This document shows, piece after piece, positions 10,487 to 39,381 of a stretch of 44,709 bases of DNA. The notes beneath the pieces were generated by a model. That model saw nothing but the letters and a program-made list of their open reading frames with translations, was not told where the DNA came from and searched no databases. Both the position numbers and the translations under genes were made by a program. The stretch comes from Nitrospira sp. (lineage in GTDB: Bacteria; Nitrospirota; Nitrospiria; SBBL01; JAADHI01): contig JALUVJ010000089.1 in the NCBI GenBank assembly GCA_027020665.1, positions 1 through 44,709 on the forward strand, read 5' to 3'. Every line of letters begins with the position of its first letter. The first letter of the stretch is position 1.

Positions 10487-10617
10487 GCACTGTAAGCCTT
10501 TGCACAGAGCAAACCCATCCAAAGATGGGGACGCAGAGCAACGGGGCTAAAGAAGGGGACGGACCGGAACGATCGCTTCGAGATACGTCATTCTTGAAGC
10601 GCAGGGGTTTCAGTTCA
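10487..10617 (+). promoter_or_regulatory. GEMM-I cyclic-dinucleotide riboswitch aptamer (A20 / cGAMP-type)
   Basis: The core GCACAGAGCAAACC (10502-10515), a P1b hairpin CCCATC-CAAA-GATGGG (10514-10529), GGACGCAGAGC (10529-10539) and GGGGCTAAAG (10543-10552) reproduce the conserved GEMM-I order. That order is CACAGnGCAAACC, stem-loop, GGGACGCAAAGC, then CCUAA receptor strand. A plausible P1 closes ACTG (10489-10492) with CAGT (~10610-10614). The base aligned with G20 of the c-di-GMP aptamer is A (ACAGAGC rather than ACAGGGC), the change known to favour 3',3'-cGAMP in Geobacter-type GEMM-Ib switches. The 3' half (P3) is less typical, so the right border is approximate. It sits upstream of the FN3 gene. 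Confidence 0.72.
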
Positions 10618-10641
10618 CTCAAACGCCTTCCATGCCAGCCG

Positions 10642-10671
10642 GGCCGCCAAAGGATGCTTTGGCGGCCTTTT
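10642..10671 (+). terminator. Riboswitch expression-platform terminator
   Basis: This is a perfect 11-bp stem (GGCCGCCAAAG / CTTTGGCGGCC, loop GATG) followed by TTTT. It ends only 19 nt before the start codon of the FN3 gene, so it must be conditional. An outer pairing TCCATGC (10629-10635) with GCATGGA (10674-10680) would also cover part of the ribosome site GGAGG (10678-10682). The switch could therefore act on transcription, translation or both. Confidence 0.85.
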
Positions 10672-14321: not shown

Positions 14322-14672
14322 GGGGGCGACCGGAATCGACGGGGATGGGAGGCCAGAGAGCGCATGTCGAGGTCCCATTGGGCTCGTTAAACAAATGGGA
14401 AACGATTAATTGCTAATGATCAGCCATTAGCCCTCGCTGCTTAAAAAGCGGCGACATCGACCTTCCGATGCCTGTGCGGGAGCAAGATGACATTGAGCAG
14501 GCTGCTGCGCTTTTTGTGTTTCAGGGAAAGCGTTTAAGACATACTGGAACTGGCGGACGACGCACTTCGTCTTTGTAGGGCATCTGACGCGAGATTGAAA
14601 CAAAGACTAAACATGTAGGGGTCTTTGGTTGAATATTTTCGGACGCGGGTTCGAATCCCGCCGCCTCCACCA
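14322..14672 (+). ncRNA. ssrA: tmRNA
   Basis: This is a one-piece transfer-messenger RNA of 351 nt. The 5' end GGGGGCGACCGGAATCGACG pairs with the 3' end CGCCTCC-ACCA, with a G3:U wobble as required for alanyl-tRNA synthetase, and CCA is encoded. The T-arm GCGGGTTCGAATCCCGC is intact. The tag frame starts at GCT 14412 and reads ANDQPLALAA before TAA (14442-14444). This proteolysis tag rescues stalled ribosomes with SmpB and marks the product for ClpXP and related proteases. The LALAA end is a standard degron, while DQPLAL differs from the E. coli tag. Confidence 0.97.
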
Positions 14673-16860: not shown

Positions 16861-17124
16861 ATGGCCAAGAAAACCTCTGAAAAATTTTACCGCTACTGGG
16901 GCAAGGCGAACCCCGCTGAAGAAGGCGGCCCAGCCTACCATCTGCTGCCCTACCATTGTTTGGATGTTGCAGTGGTGGGGTCTGTCTGGTGGAGAAAAAG
17001 TGCAGTTATCCGCAGTCGGTTTATTGCCTCAACAGGTTTGGGGGAACCGCAAGTTAAAGCATGGGTGCTGTTTTTTCTCACACTGCACGACCTTGGAAAA
17101 TTCGATGTTCGGTTTGTACAGTAA
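16861..17124 (+). pseudogene. Truncated cas3 N-terminus (E. coli I-E lineage), HD-domain stub
   Basis: This 87-codon reading frame (RYWGKANPAEEGG, HLLPYHCLDVAVVGSVWW, VKAWVLFFLTLHDLGKFDVRF) matches the first ~85 residues of E. coli-type Cas3. It includes the first HD histidine (YHCLDVA, H32) and the HD pair (LHDLGK, H76-D77). It then ends at TAA (17122-17124). Right behind it (ATG 17142) begins a complete Cas3 with its own, differently worded HD domain. The stub is thus best read as the leftover 5' end of a previous cas3 that was replaced. Translation of the stub might still occur from the operon leader. Confidence 0.8.
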
Positions 17125-17141
17125 CTGACTGTGGAAAAACG

Positions 17142-19715
17142 ATGACGTATTTTTGGGCAAAGACAACACCAGAAGGAAAGCCAGGTATTTCTGTCTATGA
17201 CCATATGATCAATGTCGGCTGCGTGGCTCGCTGCATGGCTGAGATGTCGCCGGAAATTCTGACACGGTTTGATTTACTTCCAACGGAAGTCGGCGCGCTT
17301 GCCGCGCTTCACGACCTTGGCAAAATATCACCGGGTTTTCAACGAAAGTGTGACCTGTGGCTTGAAGAGAATGATTTAGCAGGTGTTGCCCGAAAGGGAT
17401 GTTGGGACACGACGATGGAAACGGATCATGGCAAGGTGTCGCATGCGGCGATTCAGGCCTTTCTCGCAGGTGAAGGCTTTGCTCGGAAAACCGCCAAGTT
17501 TGTGTCTGCCGTGGTCGGTGCTCACCACGGACGCTTAAATCCCCCCAATGATCGTGGATACCGTCCACCGAAGACAATCTCCGACCCTGCCAGCAAAATA
17601 AATTGGGACGCTGAGAGAACGGCAAATGCCCGAAAGATATGGAATTTTTTTGCGGGGTGCCGGAATACGCTTGATCTGAAGGATGACTCCCCATCACTCT
17701 GGTGGCTTGCCGGTCTTACCTCCGTTGCCGATTGGATCGGTTCCAACGAACAGTTTTTTCCAACAGCGCGTCAGGAAGTCAATAAAGATATTCCCGTTTT
17801 GGCGCGAAAAACACTCGACGTGATCGGCTTTCAAAAAACCAAAATTGTTCCGGGGCTTTCCTTTCATGCCTTGTTTCATGATACTGAAAGACCTGAAAAA
17901 AGGTGGACGCCCAATGAGATACAGGAGAAAACACTTGCCACTGTGGGCGGACCAGGCATTTATGTCATTGAAGCACCCATGGGAACAGGCAAGACGGAAG
18001 CGGCGCTTTGGGCAGCCTACCACTTACTTGTTTCCGGAAAAGCGAATGGGATCTACTTCGCCCTTCCCACGCAGGCGACAAGCAACCGCATTCACCTGCG
18101 CTTGAACGATTTTCTAAGACGCATTGCCCCGGAGACAGGAAAAAGCCGTTTGATTCATGGAAACTCGTGGCTCATGGATGCCGACTATTGTATTTCCCCC
18201 TCAGCAACCGACACAAAAACAAAGGCAGCCGAGGACGCACGGACAGGGCGGGACTGGTTCGCCTCGACGAAGCGGGCGCTCCTTTCGCCTTTCGGCGTCG
18301 GCACTGTGGACCAGGCCTTGCTCGGCGTGGTGGCGGCGAAGCACTTTTTTGTGCGTCATTTTGCCCTTGCGGGGAAGGTCGTGATTCTCGACGAGGTGCA
18401 TTCCTACGATCTGTATACGGGAACGCTCATCCATGAACTCATTCTGACCCTTAAAGATTTGGGATGCACGGTTATTGTTTTGTCCGCTACCCTTACGAAA
18501 GAACGGCTCGGGAAGATCGTCCATCTTCCCGAAAACACCCCAGATGATGAACTGCCATATCCGCTCATCACAGGCTGCAATGAAGGCGTGGCACTTGAAC
18601 CTGTGGCGGCAGCAGCGCCGGCATCACAAACCGTAAGTGTCGATTTTGTTTCCGGGGAAAGGGCCGCAGACGAAGCGGTGGCGGTTGCCCAAAAAGGCGG
18701 GGCCGTCCTCTGGATATGCGACACCATTGACGCAGCCCAAGAACAGTACAAACGATTTATGGATAAGAACCAAAATACGTTTCCCATCGGTCTTCTTCAC
18801 GCCCGCTTTCCTTTCTGGCGTCGTGAACAACTCGAATCCCTGTGGATGGAACGATTCGGAAAAAACAATGCAAAGCGCTGCGGCGCCATCCTTGTTTCCA
18901 CGCAGGTCGTGGAGCAGAGCGTCGATTTGGACGCGGACCTGATGATTTCGGAACTGGCCCCCACCGATATGCTGCTTCAACGCCTCGGGCGGCTCTGGCG
19001 GCACAAACGGAAAGAGCGACCGGTGGATGCGGCCAGACTGAGCATTATCAAAGAGACGAACAGCCTGGATGAATTCAGAAACATGAAAGCGAAGGCGATC
19101 AAGAAAGCACTCGGAGGAAAAGCGCGCGTGTACGCACCCTACATTCTTCTTCGTTCTCTTGAAGTCTGGGAGAATCAGAGGACTGTGTCGATCCCGTCGC
19201 AGATACGGCCGCTCCTTGAATTAACTTACGAGGATCGGGGGGGCGAACCTGAGTCATGGCAGGTGCTTTCCGATGAGTGGTTTGGCACCGATTCGGCAAA
19301 AAAGATGATGGCTCTACGAAATTGCAACTTGTGGCAAGTGGCCCTTGAAGATGAAGAGGGTGTTCAGACCCGTTTGAACGAGGTGCCGACCGTCTCCTTA
19401 ATCCTTTGCCGGAGTGTGAGCAAAACGGAAGCGCTGTTTGTCGATAGTACTTCCGCGCGGCTTGGCGGAGAGACTTTCCGGCTCTCCACAGCACAAACGA
19501 TCCATAAAAATCTGGTGAGGGTGCCGCGTTACTGCTTTGATTATATTGCATCGTGCTCGGCTTTCTCAGACTATGTATACGGAGAACAGTGTTCCGGAAT
19601 TGTTCAGCAAAGCGGAAATGTCGAAGTAAAGGGATTAAAAGATGGTCACTCGCTTTTCTATTCCGACGAAATGGGACTGGTGATCAAGAAGAGATCAGTA
19701 AAGGAGGAAAAATGA
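17142..19715 (+). CDS. cas3: CRISPR-associated nuclease-helicase Cas3 (type I-E operon)
   Basis: This 857-residue protein is the Cascade-recruited single-strand nuclease and 3'-5' helicase that shreds targeted DNA. HD domain: YDHMINVG (H21), ALHDLGKISPGFQ (H57, D58), KVSHAA (H101), GAHHGR (H128-H129). Helicase: Walker A APMGTGKTEAA (281-285), DEVH box (417-420), SAT (448-450), QRLGRLWR (613-620). All catalytic motifs are present. The start is ATG 17142, where the HD domain begins; in-frame codons further upstream read through the cas3 stub in another frame. Its TGA overlaps the cas8e ATG (ATGA). It is not of the same lineage as the stub before it. Confidence 0.95.
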   Translation: MTYFWAKTTPEGKPGISVYDHMINVGCVARCMAEMSPEILTRFDLLPTEVGALAALHDLGKISPGFQRKCDLWLEENDLAGVARKGCWDTTMETDHGKVSHAAIQAFLAGEGFARKTAKFVSAVVGAHHGRLNPPNDRGYRPPKTISDPASKINWDAERTANARKIWNFFAGCRNTLDLKDDSPSLWWLAGLTSVADWIGSNEQFFPTARQEVNKDIPVLARKTLDVIGFQKTKIVPGLSFHALFHDTERPEKRWTPNEIQEKTLATVGGPGIYVIEAPMGTGKTEAALWAAYHLLVSGKANGIYFALPTQATSNRIHLRLNDFLRRIAPETGKSRLIHGNSWLMDADYCISPSATDTKTKAAEDARTGRDWFASTKRALLSPFGVGTVDQALLGVVAAKHFFVRHFALAGKVVILDEVHSYDLYTGTLIHELILTLKDLGCTVIVLSATLTKERLGKIVHLPENTPDDELPYPLITGCNEGVALEPVAAAAPASQTVSVDFVSGERAADEAVAVAQKGGAVLWICDTIDAAQEQYKRFMDKNQNTFPIGLLHARFPFWRREQLESLWMERFGKNNAKRCGAILVSTQVVEQSVDLDADLMISELAPTDMLLQRLGRLWRHKRKERPVDAARLSIIKETNSLDEFRNMKAKAIKKALGGKARVYAPYILLRSLEVWENQRTVSIPSQIRPLLELTYEDRGGEPESWQVLSDEWFGTDSAKKMMALRNCNLWQVALEDEEGVQTRLNEVPTVSLILCRSVSKTEALFVDSTSARLGGETFRLSTAQTIHKNLVRVPRYCFDYIASCSAFSDYVYGEQCSGIVQQSGNVEVKGLKDGHSLFYSDEMGLVIKKRSVKEEK

Positions 19716-21286
19716 ATGTCGCTTTTGATCCGTGGATACCGGTGGTGACGACATCCGGTAAGCGAAATCTCGCTAGTCTTTGCGATGTGCTGACCGAGGG
19801 GGAGAAATTCGCCGACCTGGCGGTGCGGCCTCATGAGCGGGTTTCACTGATGCGGCTTTTTCTGTGTGTGGCGCATGCGGCGCTGGATGGGCCGAAGGAT
19901 TATGATGAATGGTGCGACGTGCCAAGGCGTTTGCCTGATGCCGCCAAGAAATACCTGACCTCCTGGAAAGATTCCTTTGAGTTGTTTCATGAAACGAAGC
20001 CGTGGTTTCAGGTGGCGGGCCTTTCAAAAAGCGCGCATGGAAAATCGTCATCGTCAGAAACCATTGACTGGACTCCCGTTTCCAAACTGAATTTTTCCTT
20101 TGCCACAGGGAATAATACGACACTTTTTGACCATGATGGATCAAGCGAAGACCGAAATATCCCCCTTAATGAAACGATTCTTGCCATGTTGACTTATCAG
20201 TGTTTTTCACCGGGCGGTTTGATTTCTCAGGTTTTTTGGAACGGCGTTCAGAGTGGAAAATCTTCTAAAGATGGTCCTTGCGTTCCATCCTCAATGATCC
20301 ACGCCTTGATTCGTGGGAAAAATCTTGTGGAGACAATCCATATCAACCTTCCGAACTATGAAGAGGTTAAATTCAGAAGCTATGGTGAACGGGATATCGG
20401 GCGGCCTATCTGGGAAAAGATGCCGGATTCATTAACCGACTCCGTCAATATTGAGAATGCAACAGGAACTTATATCGGCCGCCTGGTTCCGATGACCCGC
20501 CTTATTCGTTTGCATCCCGCGGGGAAGCGAATGCTTCTGGGTGACGGCCTGTTATATCCCGTATTTGCAGATGGATTCCCGGAAGAACCAACGGCTACAG
20601 TAGTAATCAGGCAGAACGGGAAAAAAGAAAAGCGGGCTGTTCTCTCATACAGGCCTGGGAAAGCCGTCTGGCGCGAACTGGCCGCAATTGTTGTAAAGCG
20701 AAAAGCGGGTGGCGCAGGCGGTCCCTTATCGCTGAGCAACATTCAAGATGGCGAAAACTGTGACCTGATTGTCGGCGCTTTAGCACGTGATCAAGCAACA
20801 ATCGTTGACACGATTGAGTCGGTCTATCATATCCCCGCACAACTTCGTTCCCCCGAAGGGACGGCAGCTTATGAATCAGAGGTAAAAAACGCTGAATCTC
20901 GGGCAAGCCGTCTTGGCTGGGCTATCGAAATTTATCGACATGAAGTTGATAAGGGATGGGAAGGAAGGCTTAAAGCTGCCGGGGCGTCTAAAGGGAAGCT
21001 GAAGGCAAAGCTCCATTTTATTGCTACTACTCATTACTGGACCACCGTAGAAAAGAACCTGCCGTTGCTTATGGCCCACATCGAAGCCATCGGCTCCGAG
21101 GATGCCATCCCGACACGTGACGCATGGCGGAAAATGCTTTTTGCCTCGGCTCGCGAGGCTTACCGCATCGCCTGCGGACAAGGGACACCGCGACAAATGC
21201 GGGCCTTCGCAAAAGGCTGGCAGAAATTGACAGGGAAAAGAGAAGAATCTAAATCCAATGAAATCAATAAGGAGGTGAAGGGATGA
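19712..21286 (+). CDS. cas8e: Cascade large subunit Cas8e (Cse1/CasA)
   Basis: This 524-residue protein opens with MNVAFDPWIPVVTTSGKRNLASLCDVL, the typical Cse1 N-terminus (F-PWIPV and LxxLL). It also has WFQV (HETKPWFQVAGL), a feature of Cse1. Cas8e reads the PAM and recruits Cas3. The start at 19712 follows AAAGGAGGA and overlaps the cas3 stop; the stop overlaps the cse2 start (ATGA at 21283). Length is close to E. coli CasA (502). Confidence 0.93.
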   Translation: MNVAFDPWIPVVTTSGKRNLASLCDVLTEGEKFADLAVRPHERVSLMRLFLCVAHAALDGPKDYDEWCDVPRRLPDAAKKYLTSWKDSFELFHETKPWFQVAGLSKSAHGKSSSSETIDWTPVSKLNFSFATGNNTTLFDHDGSSEDRNIPLNETILAMLTYQCFSPGGLISQVFWNGVQSGKSSKDGPCVPSSMIHALIRGKNLVETIHINLPNYEEVKFRSYGERDIGRPIWEKMPDSLTDSVNIENATGTYIGRLVPMTRLIRLHPAGKRMLLGDGLLYPVFADGFPEEPTATVVIRQNGKKEKRAVLSYRPGKAVWRELAAIVVKRKAGGAGGPLSLSNIQDGENCDLIVGALARDQATIVDTIESVYHIPAQLRSPEGTAAYESEVKNAESRASRLGWAIEIYRHEVDKGWEGRLKAAGASKGKLKAKLHFIATTHYWTTVEKNLPLLMAHIEAIGSEDAIPTRDAWRKMLFASAREAYRIACGQGTPRQMRAFAKGWQKLTGKREESKSNEINKEVKG

Positions 21287-21771
21287 GCTGGTTTCTTGAA
21301 CGGCTTCGTAGGTACAAAGAAAACCGGGGGATGATGGCCAATCTCCGGTGCATCCTTGTGGACAACAAAAAACACCGCGCCTGGCCCGCGCTGAACCGTT
21401 TGGGGATCAAGACCAACGACGATATTTCAGCTTATGTCACCGGTCTCTATGCGGCCCATCCGGAAGAAGCGGCTACAGGAAATTTCGGTGCCACTTGTAA
21501 GCGTATCGAACAGCAGCGGGACGATATACGAAGCGATGACGGCAAGTTGACCCCGACGGAACGGCGGTTCCAGCATCTGCTTGCGGCTGAAGGATGGGAG
21601 GAAAGACGAAAGCGTGTTCTGAGGATGGTGTTGATGGCGAAATCGCAGGGTGTCCCGGTCAACTACGAAAAACTGGCGACAGACCTGAGGTACTGGAACG
21701 ACCGCACCAAAACCGCCTGGGCAATGGCGTTCTGGACGCGGGCAGAAACGCCGGAGGAGGAGAACGAATGA
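21283..21771 (+). CDS. cse2: Cascade small subunit Cse2 (CasB)
   Basis: This 162-residue protein matches the Cse2 layout: GMMANLRCILVDNKKHRAWPAL near the start, CKRIEQQRDD in the middle and VNYEKLATDLRYWNDRTKTAWAMAFW at the end, the last a hallmark of the family. Two copies stabilise the R-loop in Cascade. It is coupled on both sides by ATGA overlaps with cas8e and cas6e. Confidence 0.93.
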   Translation: MSWFLERLRRYKENRGMMANLRCILVDNKKHRAWPALNRLGIKTNDDISAYVTGLYAAHPEEAATGNFGATCKRIEQQRDDIRSDDGKLTPTERRFQHLLAAEGWEERRKRVLRMVLMAKSQGVPVNYEKLATDLRYWNDRTKTAWAMAFWTRAETPEEENE

Positions 21772-22493
21772 ACTGGCTGGCACGGATGGATGTGGATGTG
21801 GAAACACTGCGTTCAAAGGGGCTTTCTGATGATATCTACGCCTGGCATAAAAGGCTCTGGGAGTGTTATCCCGGCGTGCCGGATCAGAAGCGCGTTGAAA
21901 TAGGTTTTCTCACCCGGATTGATCCGCTCGAAGGGGCGTTCCGTCTCTGGGTTTTGGCGAAGAGAAAACCGGTCTGTCCGCAATGGTGTTCCCCAGGACG
22001 TTTTGCCCTCAAGGAGATCGCCCCGTCTTTCCTCTCACACCGCTACTATGCCTTTGACCTAAAAGCCAATCCGGTCAAAAAAGTCGTGCAGCGCGGCCCG
22101 AACGGGGAGACCTTGTTCCGTCTCAACGGGAAAAGAAAATCCGGCAAACGCGTGCCATTGGTAAAAGAAGATGAGCTGCGTGCATGGCTCATTCGAAAAG
22201 GGCGTGTACGCTGCCGTGCCCAAAACGCAGAGGGTGTTCTGGTTGATATTCCAGGAGGATTCCGCATCGTGGAGGGAAAACCGCTTGAAATCAGCCCGAT
22301 GGCCGAAAACCACTTCCGCAAGAAGGATAAAAGGAAGAATACGGAGCATTCGGCTTATCACGGGGGCGTCCGGTTTCGCGGAATCCTGGAGGTGACCGAC
22401 AGAGATGCCTTTATAGAAACCTATCAATGCGGCATCGGCAGCGCCAAGGGCTTCGGGTTTGGCCTCTTGCTGCTTGCGCCAGTAAATTTTTGA
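21768..22493 (+). CDS. cas6e: CRISPR pre-crRNA endoribonuclease Cas6e (CasE)
   Basis: This 241-residue protein has the two-RRM Cas6e pattern ending in a glycine-rich loop GIGSAKGFGFGLLLLAPV, the classic C-terminal signature. A basic central part (RKSGKRVPLVKEDELRAWLIRKG) is also present. It cleaves at the base of the repeat hairpin and keeps the 3' stem. The start at 21768 (ATGA overlap with cse2) gives a length close to the family. Its place right after cse2, before cas7e and cas5e, differs from the E. coli order, where it is last. Confidence 0.92.
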   Translation: MNWLARMDVDVETLRSKGLSDDIYAWHKRLWECYPGVPDQKRVEIGFLTRIDPLEGAFRLWVLAKRKPVCPQWCSPGRFALKEIAPSFLSHRYYAFDLKANPVKKVVQRGPNGETLFRLNGKRKSGKRVPLVKEDELRAWLIRKGRVRCRAQNAEGVLVDIPGGFRIVEGKPLEISPMAENHFRKKDKRKNTEHSAYHGGVRFRGILEVTDRDAFIETYQCGIGSAKGFGFGLLLLAPVNF

Positions 22494-22524
22494 TCACTGC
22501 AAAACGACAAGGAGGAGAAGAGCC

Positions 22525-23745
22525 ATGAAACATTTGGAATTGCACATCATTCAATCTGTTCCCGTCGCCTGTCTCAACCGCGATGACCTCAATTCACCTA
22601 AAACCGCCGTCTTCGGGGGCGTGCAGCGGGCGCGGGTATCGAGCCAGTCGTGGAAGCGGGCGATTCGGGAGTTGGCGAAAGAATTGGCGCCGGAATGTTT
22701 TAAGGGAAACCGCACGCGCCGATTTGTTTTCACCCTGAAGGAACGGCTTATTCAAAAGGGAATTTCAGAGCGATGTGCTGTTGGAATTGCCGAGCATGTT
22801 GCAGGGATTATCGAAACACTTGATTCGAAGAATGATGAAGCTGGTAACAAAAAGATAAAAACCTTGATGTTTTTTTCGGACGCCGAATATGATTCAATAG
22901 CGGAAGACATTGCATCGGCGGAAGATGTAAAGGGCTCGTTGAAGACGTTAGAGGGTGCTTTGGAAAAAGTGTCTGCTGCCGCAGACAAAGACGCTAAAAA
23001 GGCCGCGGAGAAAGAAAGGTTAAACGTTTTTAAGACGATAAGAACACTTTCAAATACGTCAATTAGAAAAATAATTAAGTCTGTTCAATTGAAAGATGCC
23101 GCCGATATCGCCCTTTTCGGCCGCATGGTCGCCAATGACCATTCTCTAACCGTTGAGGCGGCGTCCATGTTTTCCCATGCCCTTTCGACCCATAAGGCGG
23201 ACAACGAAATCGATTTTTTTGCCGCCGTTGATGATCTGCAAACCGAAGCGGAATCCGGGGCAGCTATAACCAGTACGCTTGAGTTTAATTCCGCAACCTA
23301 TTACCGTTTTGCCGCTTTGAACCTCGATATGCTGGCCGATGGGGAGCATCTGAAAAGCATGTCGCAAGAAGAACGTCAGAATGTGGTGCGCACATTCGTT
23401 AAGGCGACCATCCAGGCCGTTCCGGGGGCGCGCAAGGCGACCATGAACGGCAATACGCTTCCGGTTTACGTGCTTGGAGTGGTGAGGAAAAATGGTCATC
23501 CAATTCAGTTGGTCAACGCCTTTGAAAGTCCGGTGCGCCCTTCGATGAAGGGTTTTGTTGTTGAGTCGATTAAGCGTATGAACAGCGAATATGCCGATCT
23601 CAAAGATACCTGGGGCATCAGCGCTCAGTTTGAAAAGGCGGTGGTAAAGAACAGCTTGAAAGACGAGATTAAAGAAAGCTTAGGCTCCATTGAAACTTGC
23701 ACATTCAATGACCTCATTGAAGGGATGGTGCAGCATGTTATCTGA
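22525..23745 (+). CDS. cas7e: Cascade backbone subunit Cas7e (Cse4/CasC)
   Basis: This 406-residue protein starts HLELHIIQSVPVACLNRDDLNSPKTAVFGGVQRARVSSQSWKRA-type, the unmistakable Cas7e N-terminus. Six copies wrap the crRNA in Cascade. It is longer than E. coli CasC (363), mainly through a lysine/alanine-rich insertion around residues 85-170. A strong AAGGAGGAG site precedes the ATG at 22525. Confidence 0.94.
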   Translation: MKHLELHIIQSVPVACLNRDDLNSPKTAVFGGVQRARVSSQSWKRAIRELAKELAPECFKGNRTRRFVFTLKERLIQKGISERCAVGIAEHVAGIIETLDSKNDEAGNKKIKTLMFFSDAEYDSIAEDIASAEDVKGSLKTLEGALEKVSAAADKDAKKAAEKERLNVFKTIRTLSNTSIRKIIKSVQLKDAADIALFGRMVANDHSLTVEAASMFSHALSTHKADNEIDFFAAVDDLQTEAESGAAITSTLEFNSATYYRFAALNLDMLADGEHLKSMSQEERQNVVRTFVKATIQAVPGARKATMNGNTLPVYVLGVVRKNGHPIQLVNAFESPVRPSMKGFVVESIKRMNSEYADLKDTWGISAQFEKAVVKNSLKDEIKESLGSIETCTFNDLIEGMVQHVI

Positions 23746-24415
23746 AAAAATTTTTCTGGCCCTTTACCTGGAAGGCCCGCTTCAATCCTGGGGATTCGAC
23801 AGCCAATACAGCCGCCGCAATACCGGACTGATGCCGACAAAGAGCGCCATCGCCGGGATGTGCTGTGCCGCGCTTGGTCTGCCGAGAGGCAGCGATAAGG
23901 AGCAAGCATTTCTTGAGAAATTCGGCGCGGTTAGGATGACCGCAATGGCCGTCCCCCGTAAGGTAGCTGAAAAAGAACTGCCTGTGCGGCGCCTTCAGGA
24001 TTATCATACCGTCCGTAACACAAAAACAGCAAAAGGGGAAATTAAAGATTGTCACATTACCCATCGCCAATACCTTACGGACGCGGCCTTCGGCGTTCTG
24101 CTTGAGGGGGATCCGTCTTTACTGGAACAGATTGCCGAGAAGCTTAAAGACCCTGTCTGGGGCCTTTGGCTCGGCCGGAAAACCTGCATCCCTTCGGCGC
24201 CTGTCTTGGCCGGTTTGAAGAAAAGCCGGGAGGATGCCCTGCGTCTTCTCATTGGAGAGAACCCTATCGAATTGTTTACCAGGCAAGAAGAAGCAGAACA
24301 TTTTGCAGAAGGCCGTGACACCCTTCCGGACTCACCCGTATCGTTTGCAACGGAACGGCGCCAGTTTTCTCCCAGAAGAGTGAAGATTTTGTTTGGATCT
24401 AAATCAAAAATGTGA
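23735..24415 (+). CDS. cas5e: Cascade subunit Cas5e (CasD)
   Basis: This 226-residue protein has the N-terminal Cas5 pattern FLALYLEGPLQSWGFDSQYSRRNTGLMPTKSAIAGM and the GLWLGRKTCIPSAPV motif. Cas5e caps the crRNA 5' handle. The start ATG at 23735 overlaps the end of cas7e by 11 bp. Confidence 0.93.
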   Translation: MLSEKIFLALYLEGPLQSWGFDSQYSRRNTGLMPTKSAIAGMCCAALGLPRGSDKEQAFLEKFGAVRMTAMAVPRKVAEKELPVRRLQDYHTVRNTKTAKGEIKDCHITHRQYLTDAAFGVLLEGDPSLLEQIAEKLKDPVWGLWLGRKTCIPSAPVLAGLKKSREDALRLLIGENPIELFTRQEEAEHFAEGRDTLPDSPVSFATERRQFSPRRVKILFGSKSKM

Positions 24416-24431
24416 AATCTATAGGCATACA

Positions 24432-25004
24432 ATGAACGATCATAGCAGTCGCAATGTACTCATCCCGCCTCACGGAGGCTATCAGAAGCTTCAGTCTTAC
24501 CAGATGTCCGAGATTGTCTATGACGCCACGGTCGCATTCTGCAACCGCTTCATCAACATACGCTCCCGCACGCATGACCAGATGGTTCAGGCAGCCCGGA
24601 GCGGAAAACAGAATATTGCCGAAGGCAGTATGGCCTCGGGCACTTCTAAAAAAACTGAACTGAAACTGGTTGGGGTTGCCAGGGCAAGCCTTGAGGAACT
24701 GCTGCTCGATTACAAGGACTTTCTCCGACAGCGTGGACTGGCGCTTTGGGATAAGGGTCATCAGAAGGCGACTAAGGTCAGAAATCTCTGCTATCAAAAG
24801 AATAGATCTTATTTGACTTACAAGACTTATATTGAGCAGTTACCACCTGAGGTTGCTGCCAACACCATGATCTGCCTTATCCACCAGACAAATTATCTGC
24901 TGGACAAGCAATTAAGGGCTTTGGAGAAGTCTTTTCTGGAAGAGGGAGGGTTTACTGAACGGCTGTATCATGTCAGGTCTAAGGCACGGAGAGACAAGAG
25001 GTAA
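24432..25004 (+). CDS. Four-helix-bundle suffix-domain protein inserted in the cas operon
   Basis: This 190-residue all-helical protein reads QMSEIVYDATVAFCNRFINI, DQMVQAARSGKQNIAEGS, KLVGVARASLEELLLDYKDFL, then a C-terminal VAANTMICLIHQTNYLLDKQLRALEKSFLEEGG. This is the pattern of the four-helix-bundle family (the fold of 23S rRNA intervening-sequence proteins and of Avd from diversity-generating retroelements) with its suffix domain. No catalytic motif is visible; such proteins usually bind nucleic acid or protein partners. It lies 16 bp after cas5e and 3 bp before the cas1e ATG in the same direction, so it is co-transcribed at the junction of interference and adaptation genes. No reverse transcriptase is present. 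Its function here is unknown. Confidence 0.8.
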   Translation: MNDHSSRNVLIPPHGGYQKLQSYQMSEIVYDATVAFCNRFINIRSRTHDQMVQAARSGKQNIAEGSMASGTSKKTELKLVGVARASLEELLLDYKDFLRQRGLALWDKGHQKATKVRNLCYQKNRSYLTYKTYIEQLPPEVAANTMICLIHQTNYLLDKQLRALEKSFLEEGGFTERLYHVRSKARRDKR

Positions 25005-25007
25005 TTG

Positions 25008-26220
<1,213 letters not shown>

Positions 26221-26305
26221 ATTCGGGTCGGTTTCAGCCGCCAATTCTCCGGTAGGAAATCGCCTTCTCAAATAACCTCGGTTTTTCAGATAGTTAGGAG
26301 AAGAG
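26221..26305 (+). promoter_or_regulatory. Putative CRISPR leader
   Basis: This is the 85-bp segment between the cas2e stop and repeat 1. The 5'-handle side of the repeat (ATGAACCG at the repeat 3' end) makes this the leader side. I cannot find a clear IHF consensus or sigma-70 promoter in it. The leader is shorter than in E. coli, so the array may also be transcribed by read-through from cas2e. Confidence 0.6.
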
Positions 26306-28348
26306 GTGTTCCCCACACACGTGGGGATGAACCGTGACGGGTTGCCAATAATTATCGGCAGCGGATGTGTTCCCCACACACGTGGGGATGAACCGTTGGT
26401 AGATACATCCTCAAAACTGGGAGGCGGGTGTTCCCCACACACGTGGGGATGAACCGTGACGGCCCGCCAGCTATTATCGGCAGCGGATGTGTTCCCCACA
26501 CACGTGGGGATGAACCGTAGATTCTCACAAGAAACCCTCGGATCAGAAAGTGTTCCCCACACACGTGGGGATGAACCGTTTTTGATATTGGTCTCAATCA
26601 GCCGACGGGTCGTGTTCCCCACACACGTGGGGATGAACCGGATTCCGGGAAAACGGGATTACCATCGAGAACGTGTTCCCCACACACGTGGGGATGAACC
26701 GCTTTGTCCCCTCAGGAAGACACCAATCTTTCAGTGTTCCCCACACACGTGGGGATGAACCGAGTGTTGATGGCAGGTCAGGCGGTTATGGCTGGTGTTC
26801 CCCACACACGTGGGGATGAACCGAAAAAACAGGCACGTCTGGACGAGCTATTTAAGTGTTCCCCACACACGTGGGGATGAACCGACATTGTGTTGTGCCT
26901 CTTTGATAACGTTTAGGTGTTCCCCACACACGTGGGGATGAACCGCGACCTTCATCGATAAAAATCCGCCATTCAATGTGTTCCCCACACACGTGGGGAT
27001 GAACCGAACAATCGGCACCACAGCGCGGAATTACTCAAGTGTTCCCCACACACGTGGGGATGAACCGCCGATGCCGACAAAACCCTCGAATACGCAAAGG
27101 TGTTCCCCACACACGTGGGGATGAACCGCTCGAATCGAAGCTGAGCGCCAGTTGAATGCAGTGTTCCCCACACACGTGGGGATGAACCGCCAGTCTATGT
27201 TTTCAGGAATTTTCATTTTCAGTGTTCCCCACACACGTGGGGATGAACCGAGTTTTCGGTCTTAGATATCTCGCCATTTTTTGTGTTCCCCACACACGTG
27301 GGGATGAACCGTGCCTTATATCTGTTGTAAAAAACTAAAATATGTGTTCCCCACACACGTGGGGATGAACCGTAATGATGATCTTGTTGCGTCGGTAATT
27401 TTAGGTGTTCCCCACACACGTGGGGATGAACCGAAAATTCCCCTCCTTTTAAAAGCCGTCTACCTGTGTTCCCCACACACGTGGGGATGAACCGATCATT
27501 GATCTCACGGGGGCAACTGCGAAGCTGTGTTCCCCACACACGTGGGGATGAACCGCCGTAAGTAGCCCGTACCTATTTACAGATGCAGTGTTCCCCACAC
27601 ACGTGGGGATGAACCGGCTCCCAGTTGCTGATACGTTCGCAGCTAGATGTGTTCCCCACACACGTGGGGATGAACCGTAGTGACTAAGTGTGAATTGCCC
27701 GTAGGCAATGTGTTCCCCACACACGTGGGGATGAACCGATTCGGGGCGATACGGCGGGTATCTTGCCAGTGTGTTCCCCACACACGTGGGGATGAACCGG
27801 AGTCAAACCCTCGCTATCTGCGGGGCCTTGGGTGTTCCCCACACACGTGGGGATGAACCGTTCTGCCAATAGAAAAATGGTGGGGTTTAACCGTGTTCCC
27901 CACACACGTGGGGATGAACCGGACCAAGACGGTGATGAGCTGGAGTTTTTTTTGTGTTCCCCACACACGTGGGGATGAACCGAAGGCAATAACGCAAAAT
28001 GAGCATGATAGATGGTGTTCCCCACACACGTGGGGATGAACCGCCACAACGCCTAGCTCACCGAGCGAGCGTTAGGTGTTCCCCACACACGTGGGGATGA
28101 ACCGCAGAAAACAGAGCCGAAGAACGCCGTCACGCTGTGTTCCCCACACACGTGGGGATGAACCGGATCTTGCTTCGCTGATTACCGCCAACAAGCCGTG
28201 TTCCCCACACACGTGGGGATGAACCGCAACGGGTTTATTGTCTGGTTGTACTTCCGGAGTGTTCCCCACACACGTGGGGATGAACCGGAGTCACTAATAA
28301 AATTAAAATCGTGCGAGTGGTGTTCCCCACACACGTGGGGATGAACCG
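26306..28348 (+). CRISPR. Type I-E CRISPR array, 34 repeats, 33 spacers
   Basis: A 29-nt repeat opens GTGTTCCCCACACACGTGGG and ends GATGAACCG; the CCCCAC/GTGGGG arms form the Cas6e hairpin. Repeats begin at 26306 and recur every 61 nt. Spacer 5 (26579-26611) is 33 nt; the other 32 are 32 nt. The last repeat is 28320-28348. Every repeat I read is identical, including the last. The leader and newest end is on the left. Spacers 1 (26335-26366) and 3 (26457-26488) are 26/32 identical. The spurious minus-strand frames rich in HPHVCGEH and SPRVWGT are just repeat translations. Confidence 0.98.
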
Positions 28349-39185: not shown

Positions 39186-39273
39186 AAAAAAGCCCTCTCC
39201 AGGCTGCTGGCTGAAGAGGGCTCGGTGTCTGCTTCTTGCGTTCACAAACGTTAAGGAGAAATAACCATGAACA
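39186..39273 (-). ncRNA. Candidate small RNA with consensus promoter and intrinsic terminator
   Basis: On the minus strand, TTGACA (39306-39301), 16 nt, TATAAT (39284-39279) predicts a start near 39272-39274. The transcript ends ~85 nt later in AGCCCTCT...AGAGGGCT followed by TTTTTT (39222-39186), a proper terminator. In between are a single-stranded UUAUUUCUCCUUAA (anti-Shine-Dalgarno-like) and a small hairpin CGUU-UGUG-AACG. Only a 7-codon frame is possible, so this is likely non-coding. It diverges from the sirtuin gene. The complement carries an 18-codon frame (39267-39323) that I regard as fortuitous. Confidence 0.68.
39191..39222 (-). terminator. Intrinsic terminator of the candidate sRNA
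   Basis: An 8-bp stem AGCCCTCT/AGAGGGCT with an inner CCAG/CTGG stem is followed on the minus strand by six Ts. In the plus direction it lacks a U-tract, so it serves the minus strand. Confidence 0.8.
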
Positions 39274-39278
39274 TAGAA

Positions 39279-39306
39279 ATTATACCGCTTTGTTTCGGGC
39301 TGTCAA
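39279..39306 (-). promoter_or_regulatory. Consensus sigma-70 promoter of the candidate sRNA
   Basis: Both hexamers are perfect: TTGACA and TATAAT, 16-nt spacer. It is the best-matching promoter I found in the window. Confidence 0.8.
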
Positions 39307-39381
39307 ATCCGGGAATCTTGTGAAGGGCGGTTTGCATTGGAGAAGGTGCGGCCCCCGGGTTTTGATGCGCCGGAGGTCATC

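Follow-up and report, generated by a model that had tools for sequence, protein, structure and literature searches.

A conserved small-RNA gene with a predicted anti-Shine-Dalgarno hairpin loop in Ca. Manganitrophaceae (Nitrospirota)

The stretch of DNA analysed here in full, referred to as the window (44,709 nucleotides), comes from a metagenome-assembled genome of Nitrospirota (Ca. Manganitrophaceae), whose closest relatives bearing a name are listed under titles such as 'Candidatus Manganitrophaceae bacterium'. In the intergenic region that separates a DUF3105 gene from a sirtuin (Sir2-family) gene, the minus strand carries a -35 hexamer TTGACA (39301-39306) and, after a 16-nt spacer, a -10 hexamer TATAAT (39279-39284). 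This is the only sigma-70 promoter in the window that matches at 12 of 12 positions, and 60 random windows generated with matching dinucleotide composition (Markov-1) contain a mean of 0.0 such sites. The predicted small RNA of about 87 nt occupies 39186-39272 on the same strand; its start, near 39272, was placed 7 nt past the -10 hexamer, and its 3′ end corresponds to the U-run of an intrinsic terminator (39186-39223), in which a GC-rich stem of 13 pairs (39223-39190) is followed by six U residues. These elements and their coordinates are as given in the earlier note, which also held that the transcript has no real coding frame; indeed, the longest minus-strand frame comprises five codons (AUG GUU AUU UCU CCU UAA) and lacks a Shine-Dalgarno (SD) sequence. 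That the RNA was previously unannotated is borne out by a search of Rfam, in which no family reaches its gathering score. By Rfam the RNA is thus a new family, of a known kind of regulator.

For the 88-nt segment 39272-39185, which covers the predicted transcript, the folding energy is -30 kcal/mol with a z-score of -3.4, a value matched by none of 200 shuffled sequences. In the predicted fold, an unpaired linker connects a 5′ hairpin to the terminator. In the 5′ hairpin (39240-39272, minus strand), an outer stem is formed by GUUCA (39272-39268) with UGAAC (39244-39240), and an inner stem by GUUA (39265-39262) with UAAC (39253-39250), giving the layout GUUCA-UG-GUUA-UUUCUCCU-UAAC-...-UGAAC. 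The CU-rich, 8-nt loop UUUCUCCU (39254-39261) is the putative anti-SD seed. The earlier note had recognized such a seed but placed it in a free stretch before the hairpin, whereas it lies in the loop itself. Moreover, the first 23 nt of the RNA, when reverse-complemented, read as an entire start region (GUUAAGGAGAAAUAACCAUGAAC). The hairpin pairs are maintained in all six available sequences; the outer stem never varies and hence provides no covariation, and covariation over the whole structure is not clearly above that of shuffled alignments for these six sequences. A further motif in the single-stranded linker, AGCAGACA (39226-39233, minus strand), is invariant in all five copies from the genus although it is predicted to be mostly unpaired, which raises the question of a second seed or a protein site.

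The unit was found in all five genomes of the genus examined, in each case between the DUF3105 and sirtuin genes and as a single copy per genome, which rules out a multicopy or repeat element. When the complete intergenic regions of these five genomes are aligned, invariance reaches 100% for TTGACA and 96% for the first 23 transcribed nucleotides. The terminator, which is present in all copies, is only 36% invariant in sequence but retains its structure through G-U pairs and compensating changes. The flanking intergenic DNA is 5-8% invariant, so that identity ends at the borders of the unit; this, together with the presence of the unit in every genome of the genus examined, indicates more than chance resemblance. 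The -10 hexamer of the relatives reads TACTAT, TATCAT, or a weaker variant and is mostly preceded by TGG, as in an extended -10 element. Conservation of the promoter and terminator in relatives had been named in the earlier note as the test of its proposal, and both proved to be conserved. Judging from these sequence comparisons, purifying selection within the genus acts on the promoter, the hairpin with its CU-rich loop, the unpaired linker, and the intrinsic terminator alike. Collectively, the locus is very probably a real small-RNA gene.

A covariance model was built from the five genus copies, with the promoter left out. It detected one further, diverged copy, in a genome of a sister genus (G005, locus L024; E = 7e-5 per genome by a rough calibration). 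This copy occupies another locus, flanked by an MCP gene and a gmhA-like gene, and is preceded by TTGACA and GTGGTA at the same 16-nt spacing. It retains the outer stem GUUCA/UGAAC and a U6 terminator, and three pairs of its inner stem are kept as G-U. Its loop region, ACCUCCUUA, is also anti-SD in character and holds ACCUCCU. A search of 270 Nitrospiria genomes by pattern and model returned no real copy besides these, so that only six genomes carry the RNA, namely the five of the genus and G005. It is absent by every search made from two other genomes of the same family (G006 and G007), and the DUF3105 and gmhA loci of other family genomes contain no homologue. The remaining pattern matches in Nitrospiria have neither promoter nor terminator and mostly read as start regions on the opposite strand, one in G006 lying inside an open coding frame resembling CrcB, while the remaining model matches are unrelated terminators. 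Viral spread was also considered and rejected, as both IMG/VR matches read, on the opposite strand, as the start of an ordinary phage gene.

As to function, the RNA can be read as a stand-alone, trans-acting anti-SD regulator that would repress translation, a reading to which we assign a probability of roughly two in three from sequence evidence. A trans-acting anti-SD role had been proposed in the earlier note, and it gains indirect support from a loop that is invariant within the genus except for one U/A position and from a relocated homologue that also has an anti-SD loop. In the mechanism we envisage, the loop UUUCUCCU(U) would first contact the SD sequence of an mRNA, after which the hairpin stem may open and pairing could extend from the SD across the spacer up to the start codon. 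Pairing as far as the start codon is proposed because the first 23 nt mirror a complete start region. The duplex would then exclude the 30S subunit and thereby repress translation, as in NfeR1 and LhrC.

NfeR1 of Sinorhizobium (alpha-r14 or cuckoo sRNA) exposes anti-SD motifs in its hairpins; by pairing with translation initiation regions, these motifs prevent translation (PMC10746234). The RNA described here similarly exposes an anti-SD motif in a hairpin. However, NfeR1 has three hairpins with CCUCCUCCC (PMC10746234), and membership of its family requires such motifs in several hairpins, whereas the present RNA has one hairpin with the single loop UUUCUCCU, belongs to another phylum, and shows no sequence kinship that could be found. 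A CU-rich loop is shared with LhrC of Listeria, in which pairing opens stem A and Hfq is dispensable for lapB regulation (PMC4132741). In contrast to the single site and single copy seen here, LhrC carries UCCC at three sites and is encoded by five gene copies (PMC4132741); the LhrC family requires these motifs in the loop, linker, and terminator loop, which excludes an RNA with one CU-rich loop only. CJnc230 of Campylobacter resembles the present RNA in its size (98 nt), its two stem-loops, and a short anti-SD stretch, CCUU (PMC11187230), but presents that stretch in a single strand between the stem-loops and needs RpoN for expression (PMC11187230), unlike the 5′ loop and sigma-70-type promoter found here. 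The toxic small RNA of Betaproteobacteria (RF02278; PMC4603805) is likewise a short RNA with UCUCCU near its 5′ end and a terminator; membership was rejected at 13.7 bits (E = 2.9) against a gathering score of 50. The Trp leader (RF00513) scores 19.6 against a gathering score of 41 bits, and an attenuator of the Trp type would have to lie upstream of a gene in its own orientation, which is missing; the next gene, DUF3105, lies on the opposite strand.

The conserved block could alternatively be a plus-strand start signal for a short leader ORF preceding the sirtuin gene, with a strong SD (AAGGAG...ATG) and an incidental promoter on the minus strand. In each of the five genus genomes, the plus strand does read a perfect SD-spacer-ATG, which in the window opens an 18-codon ORF (39267-39323, plus strand) behind AAGGAG (MNIEIIPLCFGLSNPGIL); 13 similar pattern matches elsewhere in the class mostly look like reverse complements of start regions, as do the two phage matches. 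The frame and length of this ORF are not conserved, however: it varies between 15 and 40 codons, lacks a conserved peptide, and carries a frameshift in G001; no promoter was detected near it on the plus strand, and the G005 copy lacks a correctly spaced start codon after its SD-like sequence. Only on the minus strand is the stem followed by a U-run, and the G-U pairs of the terminator and of the G005 inner stem would be A-C on the plus strand. Taken together, the U-run, the G-U pairs, and TTGACA fit the minus strand alone, which makes the leader ORF very improbable. We judge from the sequence that the ORF is a by-product of the antisense seed and lies outside the sRNA.

Two other explanations accept a minus-strand RNA. 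It might act as a cis-antisense RNA on a plus-strand transcript that reads through from DUF3105 into the sirtuin gene, in keeping with the synteny of DUF3105, oppositely oriented sRNA, and sirtuin in all five genomes and with the lack of a plus-strand terminator between the two genes at the sRNA. Perfect complementarity in cis, however, needs no sequence conservation, and it is the loop and promoter, not the length of overlap, that are under selection; as the sister-genus copy also lies in another gene neighbourhood, we consider this explanation unlikely. We likewise give low probability to a general modulator of translation that imitates the 16S rRNA 3′ terminus and competes for many SDs instead of a chosen set of mRNAs. 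The anti-SD core CCUCC within the sister-genus loop, the weak similarity to RF02278, and a seed that suits many start regions would agree with it. Against it, RF02278 demands a far higher score, and the genus loop UUUCUCCUU lacks CCUCC, while conservation of its flanks reaches well past the anti-SD core, pointing to pairing of greater specificity.

For a trans-acting regulator, the likely targets are of interest, and the target signal is weak. Scores are raw duplex energies without accessibility and serve as leads only; ranks are approximate, as the sample covers about 230 kb and 186 genes of the genome, partly in stretches picked for pattern matches. The best recurrent candidate, as a lead from these duplex predictions, is the mRNA of a DUF5666 lipoprotein, whose start region recurs in three genomes with at most three mismatches to the antisense block. 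Its predicted duplexes reach -34.9 (G004), -28.4 (G000), -24.7 (G001), and -22.1 kcal/mol (G003), compared with background means of -14.5 ± 4.6 (G000) and -12.5 ± 4.3 (G001); the G002 gene gives only -16.2. In the window's genome the DUF5666 gene ranks second among the 186 sampled genes by raw duplex energy, and other genes in G000 score equally. The earlier note had suggested AGGAG sites of cytochrome or cas genes as targets. Of the 186 sampled start regions, those of the two cytochrome genes stand at ranks 120 and 169, which does not support them as targets, whereas a cas6e-like (21768) and a cas7-like (22525) gene rank 4 and 5, on raw duplex energy only. Likeness of the seed to AGGAG sites is by itself weak evidence, because any reverse-complemented SD looks alike. 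Both cas genes, which pair unusually well with the seed, belong to a type I-E-like CRISPR-cas locus at 17061-28000 of the window. Separately, small secreted-looking proteins of 120 aa (MKKMTxIAAFLG...CGGDDES) occur in several copies in G001 and G003 (L104, L109, L113, and L118, at position 1501), and their start regions are 1-3 mismatches from the complement of the sRNA.

Hfq was detected in none of eight family genomes above the PF17209 cut-off, with controls such as E. coli positive, so the RNA probably acts without Hfq or with another chaperone. A more particular proposal, which we regard as doubtful, is that of a lineage-specific, Hfq-independent RNA, found among relatives of manganese-oxidising Nitrospirota, that would select a set of start regions with a 23-nt segment antisense to an entire start region, from the SD and spacer to the AUG and the second codon, rather than with a short anti-SD core; DUF5666 lipoproteins might lead the set, joined in the window's genome by cas genes. 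A search of one literature library found no paper on small RNAs of this lineage. The family is known for oxidizing manganese and seems to lack Hfq; the RNA would represent a compact regulator in it, and would show the anti-SD hairpin design recurring in a phylum distant from those of the known examples.

Other RNA elements also lie in the window. A tmRNA gene (RF00023) occupies 14322-14672 on the plus strand. On the same strand, a c-di-GMP-I riboswitch (RF01051, 55.6 bits) at 10498-10651 is located just upstream of a gene for an FN3-repeat-like protein, for which 10690 is the better start, the longer ORF from 10405 being probably mis-started.
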